Part shown: one piece after another, positions 6,116-17,041 of the stretch
How the letters are laid out: each line of letters begins with the position of its first letter
Numbering within the stretch: position 1 is the first letter of the stretch
Origin: Chrysochromulina parva
Taxonomy: Eukaryota > Haptophyta > Prymnesiales > Chrysochromulinaceae
Direction of reading: 5' to 3'
DNA length: 17,041 nt
Assembly: GCA_002887195.1 (NCBI GenBank)
Contig: PJAB01001125.1
Coordinates: 1 to 17,041 of the forward strand
The notes under the pieces: model-generated
The model's input: the letters and a program-made list of their open reading frames with translations, nothing else
The model's database searches: none
What the model was told of the DNA's origin: nothing
Position numbers and translations under genes: made by a program

Positions 6116-7131
6116 TCACCACGCCCCCCACGCCCCACTTCCTCGGCCGAGGCCACCGAAGCCATTGGCGAGGCCTGGCACGGTCCCCGGCGGCGGCGTG
6201 GCGGACGCCGACGGCTTGGACGCCCCCGGCGTCACCACTGAGGACGCGCGCCCGCCAAGCCACGCCTCAAAAGGCAGCGGCAGCGGCTCTCTCGACAGCC
6301 CCGACGGCCCCACGGGAGGCGGCACGGGCGAATAGCTGAGCGCGGCAGCGCCCCCGCCATTCGGGCTGAAGAGCTCATCGAGAGCAGCGAGGAAGTGGGT
6401 GTCGTCGCCAGCTGCGGCGCGGCCTCCGAGCACCTCGCCGCTTGCCAACGAGGCACAGCCCCCGGCGGCAAGCGCCGTCGCCATCTGCCATCGGCCGTCA
6501 CCGAAGGCGGCTGCAGAGGCCCGCTGCTGTGCGCTGATGCCCGAGACGGCGCCCGAGACGGCGCCCGAGACGGCGCCCGAGGCGGACGCTGGGTGCAAAG
6601 GCTGGGCTCCGATCTGCGCCGCGGCAGCCGCTTGCGCCTGCGCCGCGGCCTGCGCCTGCACCACGGCAGCCGCTTGCGCCTGAGCCTGCGCCCGTGCCTG
6701 CGCGTGCGCCACGGCCTCTCTCGCGGAGGCTGCGGGGCCGGGGGTAGAGTCCGCCTTGGCCCGGCGCCTTGCCTCCTCGGCTGCCGCCTCGCGCGCCGCG
6801 CGCTCAGCCTCCGCGCGCTCGGCTTCTGCCTCCGCCTTGGCCTTGGCCGCCGCCTCCGCCTTCCGCTTGGCATCGCGCCGCGCCGCCTCTTCGAGCTTTC
6901 GAGCCTCCTCTGCTGCCTCGCGACGCGCTTGCACCTCGGCCCGATGGCGCTCCTCTTCGACGCGAGCCTGCTCGGCACGGCTCGCCGCGCGCGTCGCCTC
7001 CTCGCGCTTTCGAGTTTCCTCCCGTGCGATCTCCTCGCGCCGCCTCTGCTCGCGCGCCACCGCCGCTCTCTTCGCCTCGACCTTTTCCAGCCGTTGCCTC
7101 TCGGCCCGTTCCGCCGCCTCGGCCGCCTCGG

Positions 7132-7172
<41 letters not shown>

Positions 7173-9064
7173 TCGGCAGCCGACGAGCTGAGAGCGCCGG
7201 CGGTGCCATTGGCCACGTACACCGCCGCCGCGCCGTTGGCCGCGTCGCCGGCGTCGGCGTCGTCCACATCATCATCTGCGTCATCAGCCGCCGCGGGTGG
7301 TGCATCCCCCGCGTCGGCGGCGCCGCCCTTTCCGAGCTGCTGCGACTTCTTCTCCTTCTCCTTGGCCTTCTTCTTTGCCTTCTTGTCACTCTTCTTGCCG
7401 CCGCCTCCGCCCTTGGCGCCGTCCACAGGCAGCTCTTCTTCATCCGCAAGCAGCGCCGCCATCGCCGCCGCCGCGCGCTCGTCGGCCTCCTGCGTCGCCG
7501 TACGCAGGAGCGCATGGCAGCGGAGCGTCGAGGCTCGCAGCGCCTCCGTCGTCTCGGACACGGAGGCGATCGAAGCGTCGGCCCCCTGTAGCCCGTCGAG
7601 CGAGTGGCCCGAGCATAACGCCGCCACCGCCGCCGCCGCTGCCGCCACCGAGGCGGTCGGCGCCGCCCCGGCCGGCGCGGGCGTGGCGGGCGTGGCGGGC
7701 GTGGCGGGCGTGGCGGGCGTGGCAGGCGTGGCGGGCGTGGCGGTGGCCGGCGCAGGCGTGGCCGGCGCGGGTGCGGTCGGCCCGGACCCAGCGGCCCCGG
7801 CCGCGGTCGGCACGGCCGCGGCCGCGATCGGCGCGGACGCGGCGGCTGCAGTGCTCAGCCGCAGCACTGAGCGGGCTACGCGATCGAGAGAACGCGAGAC
7901 TGCGGCCGAGTGTTCGAGGGCGGTCTTGCCGTTCGCGCGGAGCGAGAGGGAGGCGCCATGGCGCAGCAGGAGCTCGACGCACTCGGGCTGCCCACCCTTG
8001 GCCGCTGCGATGAGGGGCGATGTGCCGTCACGCCCACACAGGTCGACCGAGGCGCGCGCGTCCAGTAACAGTGTCGCGCACTCGAGGTGCCCCTTGAGGC
8101 ATGCGACGACGAGTGGCAGCGCGAGCGGCGTGCCGGTGCGTGAGTCCTTCTCGACGCGATCCGGCTCCGCTTTGGCTTCAACTAATCGCTTGACGTACGT
8201 CGCTGCACCGATCTCGCATGCCCAATGGAGGGACAGCTGACCTGCTTGCCCCAACGCGCCGGGCGGCGCGCTTGCATCGAGGCTGAGGCAGCGCGTGTTG
8301 GGCGAGGCGACCCAGGCCCACTGGCGGCCCGAGGCCAGCGCGTACACGTACGCCTGCCATACGCCCACCGCCTGCTCGGGGCAGCGCGCCGCGTCGGGGC
8401 AGTACAGGTATCCGCTCTTGGTGCCGTAGCCGCTCTCGGGGCCCGCCACCCATTGCTGATCGTGCCACCAGAGGCACCAGGTGCCCGCCTGGTCGCCTGG
8501 TGCGAGTGGCTCGCGCAGCACGTACGTGGGCCGCCGATTGAGGTCGCTCGGACGACGCTCGTACGTGCCCAACCCGCGCGCGCCGCCACGGGGTGGCGTG
8601 CCCACGAGAAAGACGGTCGAGGCGGCGCGCGCGAGCCGCCGGTCGAGCTCCTCCTCGTGCATCACGAGCGCGGCGCGCCCAGCGGCGCCGGCGAGGCAGT
8701 GCACGCCCGGCACGTCCTCCCAACCGCCGTCAAGCGCCGCCTGCCACGGCTTCATCGATGTCGTCAGGTCTGGGCGCGTGGCCGCATCCCGCAGGAAGAA
8801 GTGCGATGTCAGCAGCCCCAGGTCCTTCTCGTCGCCGACGTGCCAGCCGTCGCGGTACCACATGAAGGATGGCTGCGAGACTGCCGCTGACGATGAGCCA
8901 GCGCGGCCCGTCTGCCAGCGCAGCTCGTAGGTCGGCCGCGCCGCCATGTCCTTGCCTGGTCGGCGTGAGTAGATGCCGAGCCGTGCCTCGTGGTAGAGCG
9001 TGTCGCCAACGAAGACGACGTCATCGTCATGAATCGTGACGCCTTCGAGAGCTGCGGCTGCCAT
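6116..9064 (-). CDS. Large ankyrin-repeat and coiled-coil protein with a duplicated Tyr/Trp-rich N-terminal module, 982 aa
   Basis: Starts at ATG 9062-9064 and ends at TGA 6116-6118. Residues about 20-125 and 155-260 look like two copies of one module: IYSRRP...ARPTYELRW...FMWYRDGWHVG, then TYERRP...RRPTYVLRE...CLWWHDQQWVAG. Similar Tyr/Arg-Pro/Trp modules occur in algal and stramenopile proteins of unknown role (recalled, not searched). Three to four ankyrin repeats follow at about 276-390 (for example GTSPLIAAAKGGQPECVELLLRHGA). The C-terminal 590 residues are low-complexity: Ala-Thr-Pro repeats, poly-Ala, a Lys-rich stretch, a long Arg/Glu/Ala charged helix at roughly 660-800, Ala-Gln repeats and three GAVS repeats. 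No signal peptide or membrane segment is seen. The N-terminal half probably binds a partner; the tail looks like a charged single helix or scaffold. It diverges from the selenoprotein gene with 201 bases between starts. Confidence 0.8.
6543..6578. repeat. 12-bp tandem repeat, three copies, coding
   Basis: The unit GAGACGGCGCCC is repeated exactly three times at 6543-6554, 6555-6566 and 6567-6578. On the minus strand it encodes the GAVS repeat of the ankyrin protein. The unit length keeps the frame. Confidence 0.85.
7138..7170. repeat. (CCG)11 microsatellite encoding poly-Ala
   Basis: Eleven CCG triplets in a row encode a poly-alanine run in the ankyrin protein on the minus strand. The length is likely to vary between strains. 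Confidence 0.85.
7681..7743. repeat. 9-bp tandem repeat, seven copies, coding
   Basis: Seven head-to-tail copies of GCGTGGCGG, one with GCAG in place of GCGG, encode Ala-Thr-Pro repeats in the linker after the ankyrin repeats. The unit keeps the frame. Confidence 0.85.
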
Positions 9065-9265: not shown

Positions 9266-9748
9266 ATGCTCCGAACGCTTCTCGTGCTGGTTGCCCTCGC
9301 GGCCTCGCGCGCGCAGCAGCACGCGCAGCAGCATCTCACCGGCAAGGTAATCTCGTGCAATGCGTGACGCCTCAATCGTCTGCCGAATGTGAAGCGGTTC
9401 CTCAAAGAGGCCGGCGGCATCGACCAATACCCTGACGTGTCTATCACCTGGATATTTCACCACGAGCCCCAGCTCTTCGTGTATGACGCCCTTGGACGCC
9501 AGGTCAATAAGATAGATCTGGCTACGTATGACTACGCAGCACTGCACCGACTCTTCAAAACCAGCTTCCGCATGTTGGAGCGAATTCCGGCAGCCGAGCT
9601 AGCAGAGCTAGCAGAGCTAGCAAACCGCACGAAAAGCGCTCAAGCGACCGCCAGCAAGGTGGTGTCGCCGTACCATCCTCACGGGCATAGGGCAGGCTCC
9701 TCAAATGAAGGCAGGCTCAGCCTCGCGCGAAGGCGCCAGAAGAATTGA
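9266..9748 (+). CDS. SELENOM: Selenoprotein M (SelM/Sep15-family thioredoxin-like ER protein) with in-frame TGA read as selenocysteine
   Basis: SelM is an ER-lumen protein with a thioredoxin-like fold and a redox Cys-x-x-Sec centre. ATG 9266 opens a 160-codon frame ending at TGA 9746-9748, interrupted only by an in-frame TGA at codon 34. Residues 1-16 (MLRTLLVLVALAASRA) are a typical ER signal peptide. The context SCNAURLNRLPNVKRFL, with U at the TGA, parallels the CGGU-x-LNRL-x-x-V-x-x-F region of animal SelM. Further down, HEPQLFVYDALGRQVNKIDL matches the family's strand region. The spacing Cys31-x-x-Sec34 fits SelM rather than the CxU of Sep15. Coding similarity on both sides of the TGA argues against a true stop or an intron there. 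The C-terminus (from about residue 105) is Ala/Glu- then Arg-rich and unlike the family. No KDEL-like tail is seen. The SECIS element should lie in 9749-10291 but was not identified. Confidence 0.88.
9365..9367 (+). other. Selenocysteine codon (TGA recoded as Sec34)
   Basis: This TGA is in frame with the signal peptide upstream and the SelM-like body downstream. Cys31 (TGC at 9356-9358) stands three positions before it, giving CxxU. Recoding needs a SECIS element in the 3' UTR and Sec-tRNA in the host. Confidence 0.85.
9593..9619 (+). repeat. 9-bp tandem repeat, three copies, coding
   Basis: GCCGAGCTA is followed by two copies of GCAGAGCTA and encodes Ala-Glu-Leu three times in the selenoprotein's C-terminal tail. 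It is a small frame-keeping expansion. Confidence 0.75.
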
Positions 9749-9875
9749 CAGTCAATGGCTCGTTGTGCCGTGCTTCGTGTTCCACACGTTTAATGACGTG
9801 AGCGCTCTGAGAACGCCATACCTGAGCATAGGTTAGCGAGGAGCCTCGCTGAGGATTGCGTGTTGGCGCAGGCCG

Positions 9876-10291: not shown

Positions 10292-11890
10292 TCACAACTC
10301 CGCTCCATTCTTGCGAAGCCGCAGGCGCGCCAGGCGAGCCTCCCACGAGCTGTCGAACCGCTCGTACGCAATCTTGGTCGTCCAGAGGCGCTCGTGCTCG
10401 GGCGTGCCCCCTTCGGTGAGGAACCACGGTGGACTTGGCTGCGCGCCAAAGCACTCTCGCCAGAAAGCGAGCGCCTCCGACGCTCCCAGCGCCTCGGCTG
10501 TGAACTCCTCGATGGTCTCGCTCATCACGTGGTATCGGATCGCGACGGGGAGGCTCTCGAGACGAAACATGAGCAGCTCCAGATCGAGATTGATCCGGCC
10601 GAGACACCAGCGGCAGATCGGTGTGCCGCGCACGTCGATGGCGCACTGGAAGGCGTGGCCTCGCTCTGGTCGCGGCGCGTCCAAGGGAGCGTCCTCGGCC
10701 GCCGCGCCGCGCTCCAATGCCCGGCGCGTGCGCGCGACACGCCCGCGGCGGCGCGTGCGCCGGCGCCGGAAGACAGCAAGTTCCTCCAGCCTCGGCGTCG
10801 CAAGGTGCTCGAGGCCAGCGTATTGTATGAGAAGGTCTGCCATCAAGTTGGGCGCCTCAGCCTTCCTCATCAGCTTCGCGATGAAGGTGCGCAGCGCGTA
10901 TGCCTTCGCGTCGTAATGCAGCAGCTCGTCCCATAGATAATCGTACCCGTAGATGCTGTTCAGATGCTCGTAGAGCGCAGGCCAACGCGAGAGAGTCGAG
11001 AGGGAGAGCGACGGGCTGAGAGTCTCCACACTGTGCCACCAGTACGGAGGGATGTACAGCGCGTCGCCCGCTTGCACCTCAGCGACTAGAGCGACAGAGT
11101 GTGAGTAGTTCTCGCATGCGAGCACGCGCAGGTCCGGGGCCTCAAAATCTGCTCGGCTCTTGTGCCACAGAGGATGCAACCTCGGGTACGGGCACAGCTT
11201 CCGTGTCTCATTTGGATGCCAGAGTACGAATCGTTTGCGCCCGAGAAGCTGCAAAAAGACGTTCCGATCGGAGTCAAAGTGGGTGTGTGTGCGCATGCCG
11301 GGCGACGAGAGCCACAGGAACTGTTGACCCTTTTTCTGGTCGTCCTTGGTCGCGTACAAGGGCGCCTGTGGCTGCAACTCCGCTCGCAGCGCCTCGGGCA
11401 CCGCGGAAAAGTACGCTGTTCGCCGGCGCGCGGAGCGCCACGAGCGACGGGAGTACGTGGATGCGTTCGAGCTGCTGCCTTCGGCCGCACCAAGTTCATC
11501 GAGGAGCGTCTCGGAGCGGAGCCGTTGCACCTCGTGTGGCTCATGGTACCGCACCCATGGGTCGAGCGCCGCCCTCGAGTCAGGCACGAGGTAGTGGTGT
11601 TCGGTCGTGCGGATCACGCCTTCGAGCATGGTTCCAGCCAGCACAGCGCGCACACCAGCCCATGTCCATCGCCGTGACGCCCATCCTGTGTCACGCAGCA
11701 ACGCTGGCTCATCGGCAGTGACAAGTGCCGCCGCGTCGATCGGCTCGCCGAATCGAGGAGCCAGCACATTGGTTTTGCCGAGCGCCGCCACATCACCATG
11801 CGCAGCGCCGTACGGTCGCAGCAAAGGCGGCGCCGTACGGTCGCAGCGACGGCGGCCATACACGGTTGGCTCCGCGTGGGTTGACGGCAT
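10292..11890 (-). CDS. JmjC/cupin-8 domain Fe(II)/2-oxoglutarate oxygenase, 532 aa
   Basis: Cupin-8 JmjC proteins hydroxylate or demethylate proteins or RNA using Fe(II) and 2-oxoglutarate; members include FIH, JMJD5 and TYW5. Motifs: HTHFDSDRN at about 202-210, where His204-Phe-Asp206 gives the HxD iron ligands; LGRKRFVLW at 216-224, with the Lys that usually contacts 2-oxoglutarate; and AGDALYIPPYWWHSVETL at 274-291, with His286 as the third ligand. The N-terminal part (EPALLRDTGWASRRWTW) resembles the usual cupin-8 entry. After the fold, about 180 residues form a less familiar extension with a Cys group (CAIDVRGTPICRWC). ATG 11888-11890 is the chosen start; the first 35 codons cover an 18-base direct repeat, so the true N-terminus is uncertain. 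The substrate cannot be assigned. It shares a 123-base divergent promoter with the ZC3H3-like gene. Confidence 0.87.
   Translation of the reverse strand: MPSTHAEPTVYGRRRCDRTAPPLLRPYGAAHGDVAALGKTNVLAPRFGEPIDAAALVTADEPALLRDTGWASRRWTWAGVRAVLAGTMLEGVIRTTEHHYLVPDSRAALDPWVRYHEPHEVQRLRSETLLDELGAAEGSSSNASTYSRRSWRSARRRTAYFSAVPEALRAELQPQAPLYATKDDQKKGQQFLWLSSPGMRTHTHFDSDRNVFLQLLGRKRFVLWHPNETRKLCPYPRLHPLWHKSRADFEAPDLRVLACENYSHSVALVAEVQAGDALYIPPYWWHSVETLSPSLSLSTLSRWPALYEHLNSIYGYDYLWDELLHYDAKAYALRTFIAKLMRKAEAPNLMADLLIQYAGLEHLATPRLEELAVFRRRRTRRRGRVARTRRALERGAAAEDAPLDAPRPERGHAFQCAIDVRGTPICRWCLGRINLDLELLMFRLESLPVAIRYHVMSETIEEFTAEALGASEALAFWRECFGAQPSPPWFLTEGGTPEHERLWTTKIAYERFDSSWEARLARLRLRKNGAEL
11805..11847. 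repeat. 18-bp perfect direct repeat, 25-bp period
   Basis: GCGCCGTACGGTCGCAGC occurs at 11805-11822 and again at 11830-11847. It contains the palindrome CCGTACGG. The period is not a multiple of three, so the two copies are read in different frames inside the proposed JmjC N-terminus, which suggests DNA- or RNA-level function or a recent duplication. Confidence 0.75.
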
Positions 11891-13857: not shown

Positions 13858-16659
13858 CTAGGCATCTAGCCCTCCAAAACGGACGTTGGGCCTGAGTGCG
13901 TTGCCAGGAGGTGTCCCTCGCTGCCGCGCGGGGGCGTCCGTACTAGGCTCCTCCCCGGCGCGGAAGTCGGTATCCCCACGACGAGGTGTGTTACGGCGTG
14001 CCTCCTCCGATTCGATGGGTGCAGGCGCAACCGTCGTGGATGGCGCCGAGATGGGCGCAGGCCGCTGCCGCCGCTTCTTCTGCACGATGTTGACGGCGGC
14101 TAAGGTTGCGCCGGCGGCGGTGTTGACGGGGGCAGAGTGCTGCTGTTCACGGACCATCGACATGAGCGCTCGCATCTGCTCTTGCATGCTGGAGAAGGAC
14201 GCCGTGAGCATCTTCTCAAGCTTGTCCATGCGCGCCTCGAGTGGCGCGTTGGCATAGCCTGCTGGCGCCCCTCCGCCTTGGGCTCCCGTATCTGGGTGGC
14301 TGCCTGCTGTGCTGGCGGCTCCTGGCGGGGATTCGCCGAGCAGAGAACGGAGCAGCCGGACGAACTTGCGAAACTCGGAGAACTCGACAGTGCCGTTCTT
14401 GTCCTCATCGGCCGACTTGAGGAGGTCCATCGCCTCAGGGGTCTGGAGATCCAATTCCATGTCCTTGAGGGCCGAGCGCAATTGGTGTCCATCCATGCAG
14501 CCGGTATCATAGGGATCGTACCGTCGGAAGACCCGGAGCAACGTGATGATTTCGTCAGACTCAGGGCTCGTGGGGTCGATGAGCACACGCTCGTTCCCTA
14601 CGTACGCGATCTCGCGCCAAGGGCCAAACTTGAGCCCGGAGATACCGACAATCGCCTGCAGCGCCTCCGCAGGCGTGGGGATGTAGCTCGCAGCGGTCAG
14701 ACTCTCAGGTTTGCGTTTCTTGAACGACTCACGTGAGTCTGCGTGGGTGAGGGTCATCTTGGAGTGCGACTTCTGTTTCACGACGACCAAGTGCTGAGCG
14801 ACGGAGTTATCTGCAGCCGAGCGGTCATTACTGGAGTTTGGCGCAAGATGGTGGTAACGGATGAAGACGGCGATCAGGGTGATCGCGCGTCTTGTCGCGA
14901 GCCTTAGGCTCGCCTGCATGACCGTCGCGCGCGCTTCGGGATGATCCCGCAGTACCTCGTGCAGGTCGGCCTCGGCGATGCGCGCGATCTCGCAATAGCT
15001 AAGCGCCTTGGCCGGCGTCGTATCGCGCAGCAGCTTCGAGTGTATCAGGATGTCCCCCCAATTCGATCCGGCGGCGAGGAAGACGCCTGCCCGAGTGGCC
15101 ATCCCGTGGGTCAGCATGAAGAGGGTGTCGGGCTCGTAGATGCGGTTCTGCGGCGCGTAAGCCATGCGCCGCACGCGACTGCTCAGCACCTCAAGAAAGT
15201 CCCGGTTGCATGCGCTGAGCCACCACACCCCTTGGAATACTTCGGAGGCGATCTGATAGCGCACGTCGCGCTGCAACTGATCAGCGAGGCAGATCTGCAG
15301 CAGCCCCTCGTACGACTTGCGCTTGAAGAGGCGTTTCGAGTTGCGGAAGAAGCGGCGCACGTTGAGGCGCGTCTCCCGAGGCTGCTTCGTGTCGTGCATC
15401 ATGTAGTTGAGCGCGTCCAAGTTCTGACTCCAACGGACCTCGTCAGGGTCGCCGTTGGTGGCGACGCCGCAGATGGTGCCCTGTGCGCTGGCAAAATAGA
15501 CAGCCCCCAAGAAGATGGTAAACACGAAGAGAACATACTCAGACCAGTTGGCGGGAACGATGGTCGCCACACCACCGACGATTTGCATGATGGCCACCAG
15601 CAGCGCGGCTGCATAGACTTCGCCAGGCTTGTCTTGGTGATCGATGGCTAGGTAGCCCATGCTCGAGTAGCGGCAGGTCCAGGCCTCTTGGCCCCAGACG
15701 TTTACCTTTGGGATCTCCAGGTGATTGGCGAGTGCTTGCAACTCGCAGTCGGACAGGCATATCCGACCGCAGTAGGCACCCACATGTCCGTCGGTTATCG
15801 CCGCTGCGTCCCCGTGGACACAGCCTGTGCACCCCGGGATGTGATTCGCGGAGTTCCCGTCCAGGAGGTCCAGCAGGGCCGGCTGGAACGCGCGGCCGTA
15901 CCATTCTCGCTGGGAGGTCCGAATGGTCGCTAACATACACCACATGCAGGCGTACCAATGCAACAGCACGATGGCACCAAGGAAGAAACTTCCTAGGGCG
16001 ATCGATGTCGACTTGATCGCAAACGAGTTTTCCCAGCGCAGAATGATCGTCGAAGCGCGCAGGATGCGGATGACGCGCAGCAGCCGCAGGACACGCATCG
16101 TCCTGAAAATCTTGACTTCGCCGTTGATGTCGCCCAGATACGTCAAGAGATCAAATGGGATGGTGGTGATCACGTCGATAAGAAACCATCCAGTCAAGTA
16201 CCGCCACGCAAGCGCTGAGTGTCGTCGCTCATAGTTGCCAATGATGGTCTCCCCGTTGGCATCACGCACCGGCTGCGGCAAGATAAACTGGATGCATATG
16301 TCCACGAAGAAGAAGGCGCAAATGAGGGTGTTCAGCACGAGTAGCGCATTGAGTTCGGTTGGCAAATTGAGCCCCACCTCGAAAGGAGTGACAAACGTTG
16401 TGTAAAAGAGGTTGAGGATCAACAGCATGTCCCAATACTGCACAAAGGCACCTCTTGGGTTGAGAAGACCACGATTTTGCCTCCGGATGCGCGACCTCAG
16501 CCTCACTGTATCCCTTGCGAACTCAGCTCTCTCTGCAGCAGAGGCATCCCCCTTAAAGCTCCTAAACCGATTGGCATCCCGAAGATGCTTCAACGCGCCG
16601 CCGCCACCGTGCTGGGTCACGAGCTGCTCAAAGCCGCTCGAGGGCAGTGGCGCGGCCAT
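13858..16659 (-). CDS. Six-transmembrane voltage-sensor cation channel (EAG/CNG layout) with CNBD-like domain, EF hands and a non-canonical pore, 933 aa
   Basis: Voltage- or ligand-gated membrane channel subunit, expected to form tetramers. ATG 16657-16659 is the first Met; the frame stays open upstream but without ATG. Approximate segments: S1 75-95, S2 103-127 (with FFFVDICIQF), S3 150-173 (GWFLIDVITTIPFDLL, typical of EAG/CNG channels), S4 184-204 with Arg at 186, 189, 192, 195, 198 and 201, S5 215-247, a 100-residue turret with seven Cys, pore loop 347-369, S6 370-399 ending AVYFASAQGTI. The filter position reads IVGGVATIVPAN, not TVGYGDIVP, so K+ selectivity is doubtful. A C-linker and CNBD-like fold span 401-591; its phosphate-cassette region reads WGDILIHSKLLRDTTPAKALSYCEI and lacks the usual Arg-Thr-Ala. 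EF hand 1 (YDPYDTGCMDG) is degenerate; EF hand 2 (DEDKNGTVEFSE) is canonical. A short coiled coil lies at 806-840. Confidence 0.9.
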   Translation of the reverse strand: MAAPLPSSGFEQLVTQHGGGGALKHLRDANRFRSFKGDASAAERAEFARDTVRLRSRIRRQNRGLLNPRGAFVQYWDMLLILNLFYTTFVTPFEVGLNLPTELNALLVLNTLICAFFFVDICIQFILPQPVRDANGETIIGNYERRHSALAWRYLTGWFLIDVITTIPFDLLTYLGDINGEVKIFRTMRVLRLLRVIRILRASTIILRWENSFAIKSTSIALGSFFLGAIVLLHWYACMWCMLATIRTSQREWYGRAFQPALLDLLDGNSANHIPGCTGCVHGDAAAITDGHVGAYCGRICLSDCELQALANHLEIPKVNVWGQEAWTCRYSSMGYLAIDHQDKPGEVYAAALLVAIMQIVGGVATIVPANWSEYVLFVFTIFLGAVYFASAQGTICGVATNGDPDEVRWSQNLDALNYMMHDTKQPRETRLNVRRFFRNSKRLFKRKSYEGLLQICLADQLQRDVRYQIASEVFQGVWWLSACNRDFLEVLSSRVRRMAYAPQNRIYEPDTLFMLTHGMATRAGVFLAAGSNWGDILIHSKLLRDTTPAKALSYCEIARIAEADLHEVLRDHPEARATVMQASLRLATRRAITLIAVFIRYHHLAPNSSNDRSAADNSVAQHLVVVKQKSHSKMTLTHADSRESFKKRKPESLTAASYIPTPAEALQAIVGISGLKFGPWREIAYVGNERVLIDPTSPESDEIITLLRVFRRYDPYDTGCMDGHQLRSALKDMELDLQTPEAMDLLKSADEDKNGTVEFSEFRKFVRLLRSLLGESPPGAASTAGSHPDTGAQGGGAPAGYANAPLEARMDKLEKMLTASFSSMQEQMRALMSMVREQQHSAPVNTAAGATLAAVNIVQKKRRQRPAPISAPSTTVAPAPIESEEARRNTPRRGDTDFRAGEEPSTDAPARQRGTPPGNALRPNVRFGGLDA

Positions 16660-17041
16660 GCCCCCGCTCGCTGCGAGTGCTAGCAAGCTCTCGGCTGCCT
16701 TCCTTTGCCAATGTACCCTCCTGGGCTGCTGCGCAGGATTAAATCCAGTTGAGGTGTCCGCGTGGCGCAGGATTGGATTTTGGCCAAACGTAGTAAACCT
16801 GGGTCGCGCGTTGAAACTGTGAATTGCAGATCATCAACGCTACACAAGCAGCCTGGTGAGCGCGAAACCCCGGTCCCTGCTAAAGCTAGACCAGGCTTAC
16901 ATCGCGGTGGGTGGGCGGGACCACTTAACTCTCGAGAGAGAGACCGACATCATGCGCGTCATTGCGCTGCGAATCTCCCCCAGAGATGCAGAGGTGCCGA
17001 GTAGCACTCTATCTGCCGACGAGATGCAGGGTGCCGAGTTC
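16660..17041. other. Upstream region of the channel gene
   Basis: These 382 bases hold the channel 5' UTR and promoter and run to the window edge. A direct repeat lies at the very end (16983-17039). The weak open frame at 16762-17004 (+) shows no family features. Nothing else is seen. Confidence 0.45.
16983..17039. repeat. Imperfect 20-bp direct repeat at window edge
   Basis: GAGATGCAGAGGTGCCGAGT (16983-17002) returns as GAGATGCAGGGTGCCGAGT (17021-17039), with one base lost, at a 38-base period. More copies may follow outside the window. Confidence 0.6.

Follow-up and report, generated by a model that had tools for sequence, protein, structure and literature searches.

The window, a 17,041-nt contig (C1125) in a 45.07-Mb Chrysochromulina parva assembly of 2,199 contigs, carries what we consider, with a probability of about 95%, to be an intronless-looking gene for a SelM-type oxidoreductase in which UGA at codon 34 specifies selenocysteine (Sec) with the help of a SECIS element in the 3' UTR. 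We infer that the hairpin works, that Sec is inserted and that the protein is secreted and has a redox role. Specifically, the 3' UTR would form a type-II SECIS hairpin that directs the decoding of the UGA by tRNA-Sec(UCA). The product would have a thioredoxin fold and likely enter the secretory pathway, and its C31-x-x-U34 would carry out thiol/selenol redox chemistry, with disulfides in proteins of that pathway as the probable substrates. Coordinates of the features are given in Table 1.

Table 1. Features of the SelM-type gene, its downstream hairpin and neighbouring frames, in window positions
Feature	Position	Strand	Basis or remark
Proposed SelM-type selenoprotein gene	9266..9748	+	160 codons plus TGA stop, no intron required
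Likely signal peptide, residues 1-16, MLRTLLVLVALAASRA	9266..9313	+	by inspection; helix 2-19 in model
Sep15_SelM thioredoxin-like redox domain, residues 27-99	9344..9562	+	profile, fold
Redox motif C31-N-A-U34	9356..9367	+	translation; predicted structure
In-frame TGA, read here as selenocysteine, U34	9365..9367	+	Cys at this place in homologues P0036, P0061
TGA stop codon	9746..9748	+	C-termini of P0002-P0005 at this place or one residue beyond
SECIS-like element	9779..9867	+	descriptor scan with controls, constrained fold
Quartets and AA of the SECIS-like element	AUGA 9793-9796; AA 9812-9813; UGAG 9850-9853	+	
Helices of the SECIS-like element	helix I 9782-9789 with 9858-9866; helix II 9798 to 9849	+	apical mini-stem
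Ankyrin-repeat frame	6116-9064	-	982 residues, long Ala-rich and charged stretches
Frame with Cupin/JmjC-like domain	10292-11890	-	convergent with the SelM gene
Ion-channel frame with C-terminal EF hands	13858-16686	-	

A redox domain that crosses the TGA

Read with TGA as U, the frame 9266-9748 yields a product of 160 residues and has a single in-frame TGA, at codon 34, in agreement with an earlier note on this DNA, which had claimed one uninterrupted 160-codon frame. The note had also described a Cys-x-x-TGA motif with SelM likeness on both sides. This holds as well, in the form C-N-A-U: the match to the Pfam profile PF08806 (Sep15_SelM) spans residues 27-99 (E 1e-14; 54.7 bits, cut-off 26) and the similarity therefore crosses the TGA. 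When the whole 45 Mb assembly was searched with PF08806, the site in the window was recovered at E 7.4e-12 with one TGA inside. The predicted model of the protein has a thioredoxin-like fold of the SelM/Sep15 type. The search against SelM and Sep15 that the note had proposed ends at SelM both by profile (1.5e-13 as compared to 7.2e-08 for Sep15/SELENOF) and by structure, where mouse SelM (2a2p) is the best match. The structural matches ranking below SelM and Sep15 are thioredoxin-like mitochondrial subunits, a likeness that we take to reflect the shared common fold. In the predicted structure C31-N-A-U34 lies between a strand (25-30) and two helices (35-38 and 40-47). The hydrophobic N-terminus looks like a signal peptide, and the protein probably enters the secretory pathway.

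Similarity ahead of the TGA was assessed with the block GKVISCNA; the chance expectation was taken from all stop-free 8-mers in the six-frame translation of the window other than this block. None of the 29,255 8-mers scores as high as GTVISCPA of the paralogue L003, 8 reach the score of the homologue P0036, and 81 that of the second paralogue, L001.

Homologues from the databases mostly lack the part with the Sec position. Our first search yielded four clusters among 266 candidates. They are 81-97% identical to the part after the TGA and differ in length only at the AELA repeat region and the last residue. All four begin at the residue matching V42, eight residues past the Sec position. The codon of V42 in the window is GTG, and the mechanical bacterial ORF list chose the same GTG as a start. 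Gene finders easily miss such a gene, as the note had foreseen, these four close clusters being stored as proteins that start after the Sec codon. A wider search with alignment, with scoring limited to the 7,996 candidates that had the most words in common, gave 60 homologue clusters. In 57 of them the local alignment does not cover the Sec position. The first residue is located 2-46 residues after it in 56 of the 57 (by ungapped extrapolation), as gene callers would place it if a stop lay there, and the remaining one, P0021, starts six residues before it with an unrelated N-terminus. Three homologues cover the position. Two have Cys there, P0036 (a complete, full-length homologue from an mmetsp transcriptome) and P0061; the note had suggested looking for algal homologues with Cys or Sec at this position. 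The third, P0056, has Trp, perhaps because a gene caller applied table 4, in which TGA is read as Trp.

A TGA that stands in frame could also be a true stop, leaving a pseudogene or a peptide of 33 residues only. We consider this very unlikely, given that the part behind the TGA is kept at such identity in four clusters, that two paralogues have a TGA at the same place and that a SECIS-like element follows downstream. Still less credit is due to a start behind the TGA, which would give a 119-residue protein of the kind listed in the databases as P0002-P0005. Eukaryotes mostly start at ATG, but the listed start corresponds to GTG in the window. M103 is the first in-frame ATG after the TGA and lies beyond the domain, so that a protein initiated at an ATG there would be without it. 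A protein begun behind the TGA would also lack strand 1 and the CxxU motif. Equally improbable is a short intron that excises the TGA. The stretch 9347-9390, whose splicing had been named in the note as a way to refute the gene, opens with GT but closes with GT, not AG. The GT at 9347 and the AG at 9393-9394, the earliest one to produce an intron across the TGA, do form an in-frame candidate of 48 nt (9347-9394). However, its removal would delete VISCNAURLNRLPNVK, i.e. the active site, a segment to which P0036 and both paralogues can be aligned with residues that match.

Sec machinery of the assembly and the probable hairpin after the stop

PF08806 matches three places in the assembly, namely L001 on C1145, the window site and L003 on C664, and each has one TGA. 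All four matches of PF10262 (Rdx, SelT/SelW type) and 8 of the 11 matches of PF00255 (GPx) likewise contain one TGA. Three GPx matches are without it, and one of these, on C529, may be a second exon. Altogether, exactly one TGA is found in 15 of the 18 SelM, SelT/W and GPx matches. All of these 15 but C1929 were fetched as loci, and in each of the 14 the TGA is at what we take to be the Sec site of the family, and nowhere else within the matched domains. The SelT/SelW and GPx loci L006-L013 and L015-L017 make up eleven more with one Sec-site TGA each, and a strict SECIS-like element is present downstream in nine of them. L008 and L009 are a very similar SelW-type pair on two contigs, and their SECIS candidates differ at several bases.

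A tRNA-Sec with anticodon TCA was detected at 70.7 bits as compared to a cut-off of 47 (53 of 4,198 candidates scored); the same model has weaker matches in all 14 control genomes, just five of them above the cut-off. SepSecS is present (TIGR03531, 568 bits against a cut-off of 225), with solved SepSecS chains among its matches, the best at 7.4e-134. There is a PSTK candidate with TIGR03575 at 1e-21 (77.6 bits, cut-off 382), for which no solved structure matched. For eEFSec, TIGR00475 has 21 matches in the assembly, none above the cut-off. Eight of the 21 were fetched and read by eye as other translational GTPases, presumably EF-Tu, IF2, LepA, TypA and eIF2-gamma. The single PF21208 match is below the cut-off in a frame unlike an elongation factor, and PF21131 has no match in the assembly and none in its controls. 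For SelD, TIGR00476 finds nothing in the assembly, and the sole AIRS match scores best, under the cut-off, as purM. These two factors may be absent from an incomplete draft or have escaped the models. The presence of Sec machinery, implied by the earlier note, is thus borne out for tRNA-Sec, SepSecS and a PSTK candidate, while eEFSec and SelD were not found in the assembly. The note's central claim, that the TGA encodes Sec in a SelM gene, is supported by the one-TGA siblings, a SECIS candidate, tRNA-Sec and SepSecS.

A general reading of TGA as Cys or Trp in this organism, for which one could cite the read-through in these genes and the Trp of P0056, has hardly any chance against the tRNA-Sec, the confinement of TGA to the Sec site in the domains of the 14 loci and the six neighbouring long frames, three of which end with TGA and none of which contains it, so that TGA is also a stop here.

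Decoding of the UGA as Sec would require a signal, which we place in the hairpin listed in Table 1. It is absent from the earlier note. Its AUGA lies 44 nt past the UGA stop and 425 nt past the Sec UGA. The element was first spotted by eye; the scan rules, drawn from the literature, were set and then changed once afterwards. They ask for ATGA, helix II, AA 9-15 nt in, NGAN and a helix I term, in the final version with nine pairs and AA, and were applied, in each of the 14 Sec loci, to the 1,500 nt that follow the matched domain. Strict matches were found in 11 of the 14, the window site having -27.8 kcal/mol. The controls gave 1 match in 14 reverse complements, 1 in 14 upstream stretches, 23 in 560 dinucleotide shuffles (4 at -27.8 or lower) and 3 in 28 strands of other loci (94,894 nt, best -24.0), and no match in the upstream stretches or the other loci equals the window site in energy. 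L001, L007 and L010 have no match under the strict rules, L001 having only a relaxed candidate. When the whole window was scanned strictly, 9793-9853 was the sole site on the + strand, and the - strand had one weaker site (11480-11544, -20.9).

With the quartets held unpaired, 9779-9867 folds at -28.8 kcal/mol into helix I, a quartet loop, helix II, AA in the loop and the apical mini-stem. The free minimum, -29.5 kcal/mol, is a different fold, 0.7 below the SECIS fold. Judged by plain folding energy, the segment does not stand out (z -1.5, with 20 of 200 shuffles at least as stable), and therefore the case for a SECIS rests on the arrangement of motifs and on location. The Rfam model SECIS_1 matches neither the window nor five sibling loci, and has no match in the assembly among the 133 of 303 candidates scored. 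We read this silence as low sensitivity of the model rather than absence, since the sibling loci are silent too. Ten SECIS segments aligned with MAFFT matched poorly in their loops, and so no covariance model was built. It is likely, judging from motifs and position, that 9779-9867 is the SECIS hairpin of the window gene.

Comparison with known SelM proteins

Mouse SELENOM (2a2p) has the same Sep15/SelM domain and thioredoxin-like fold as the window protein, and CxxU followed by xLNRL is common to the two, which agrees with the note's remark that URLNRLPNVKRF parallels animal SelM. The motif itself differs, being CNAU in the window protein where SELENOM has CGGU, or CGGC in the chain of 2a2p. 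Fly Sep15/SELENOF (2a4h) shares Pfam family and fold with the window protein, with a weaker profile match. Animal SelM and Sep15 are ER proteins and animal SelM carries a C-terminal ER-retention end, whereas the window protein has a low-confidence C-terminal tail whose last residues are RRRQKN, without a KDEL-like or other retention end. For this reason we do not file it as a strict orthologue of animal SELENOM.

SelM has been described in a green alga (Ostreococcus) and a diatom (Thalassiosira) (PMC2375036), and SelM fusions in a pelagophyte (Aureococcus) and a haptophyte (Emiliania), with the SECIS placed in the 3' UTR (PMC7539508). The window gene is not described in the accessible parts of either paper. 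SelM is thus already known in algal selenoproteomes and the window gene is an additional member. L001 (1390-2043 on G000:C1145) has a SelM domain, the motif CSGU, two ShK stretches and an FKDEL end. It resembles the SELENOM-ShKT fusion of Emiliania huxleyi, while the window gene has no ShK domain. With their differing ends and the hydrophobic segment of L003, the three SelM paralogues may act at different places. The window gene brings a Sec-containing SelM to a genome in which at least 14 other such genes or matches are present, and standard annotation easily overlooks it; the Rfam SECIS model detects none of the SECIS-like elements of this assembly.

A SECIS candidate within the coding sequence of the sister gene

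L003 (G000:C664) is the nearer paralogue of the window gene, with 41% identity as compared to 26% for L001. By inspection it combines the SelM domain with a hydrophobic segment, which probably anchors the protein in a membrane. The only strict SECIS candidate of L003, at 1808-1860, has -40.2 kcal/mol, the best of the 14 loci. It is located within the open frame, ahead of the codons of the hydrophobic segment, and the stop follows at 2062-2064. The 75-nt core folds at -41.7 kcal/mol, the mean of synonymous recodings being -23.0 (z -4.6, 0 of 3,000 as low). In a scan of the segment some hairpin appears in 386 of 3,000 recodings, and a single one of the 3,000 attains the real energy.

Anchor-type proteins were aligned as L003 plus eleven relatives, not counting the near copy P0006 and the window protein. 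At the place of the SECIS, 11 of the 12 have [NHYD]-D-[AV], and the same 11 have A-[DE] downstream; P0056 has neither. The D of the first motif and the D/E of the second are 13-20 residues apart, and the two motifs together are what NAT-GAT-G...GCN-GAN would be translated into. N, H, Y and D are all encoded by NAY codons, and ATGAT-G occurs within NAT-GAT-G, so the peptide motif would encode such a hairpin. Two tests bear on this, both, like the recoding test of L003, under rules laxer than those of the strict scan (8 pairs, AA or CC) and both excluding P0006 (98% to L003) and the L003-like pieces P0023, P0040 and P0060. In the first, random synonymous codings of the linker gave SECIS-like hairpins more frequently than codings of shuffled linkers in all 11 proteins with the motif. 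P0056 fails it (2 of 400 codings, 14 of 400 for shuffles) and so does the window protein (0 of 400 against 10 of 400), as expected with its SECIS-like element after the stop. In the second, the motif was fixed and always encoded as NAT-GAT, and shuffling was confined to the residues between its parts and on either side. The real order was ahead in 11 of 11, from 555 against 282 (P0047) to 2011 against 308 (P0041) of 2,500. At -15 kcal/mol or lower it was again ahead in 11 of 11, in P0047 barely (64 against 47 of 2,500). Viral contigs yielded no relatives of the window protein, of P0047, of P0041 or of alignment A3, and genome contigs none of alignment A3.

The SECIS candidate in the coding sequence of L003 is supported by one DNA sequence and ten proteins. 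We think it probable that L003 and its ten relatives have a SECIS in the coding sequence between redox domain and anchor. In L003 the candidate hairpin precedes the probable anchor, while in the window gene, which has no anchor, the SECIS-like element comes just past a nearer stop. One could speculate that the SECIS moved between coding sequence and 3' UTR in these two sisters; the direction of such a move would be speculation as well.

A fowlpox virus GPx4 homologue has its SECIS inside the reading frame, as proposed here for L003, and this element works in mammalian cells (PMC6769590). That case is viral, whereas L003 is a cellular gene with ten database relatives, and the SECIS-like element of the window gene follows the stop. 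In Stylonychia GPx a coding-region SECIS was noted on the reverse strand, among GPx without Sec (PMC7409322). A published pipeline dropped SECIS candidates in coding regions of known proteins (PMC2375036) and would therefore have missed an element of this kind. Within the portions of the literature searched, we found no report of a coding-region SECIS in algal SelM. The proposed coding-region SECIS of L003 is more surprising than the window gene and matters more. If true, this lineage has a conserved cellular gene family with a translated SECIS, in which one can ask how ribosomes cross a SECIS that is needed upstream.
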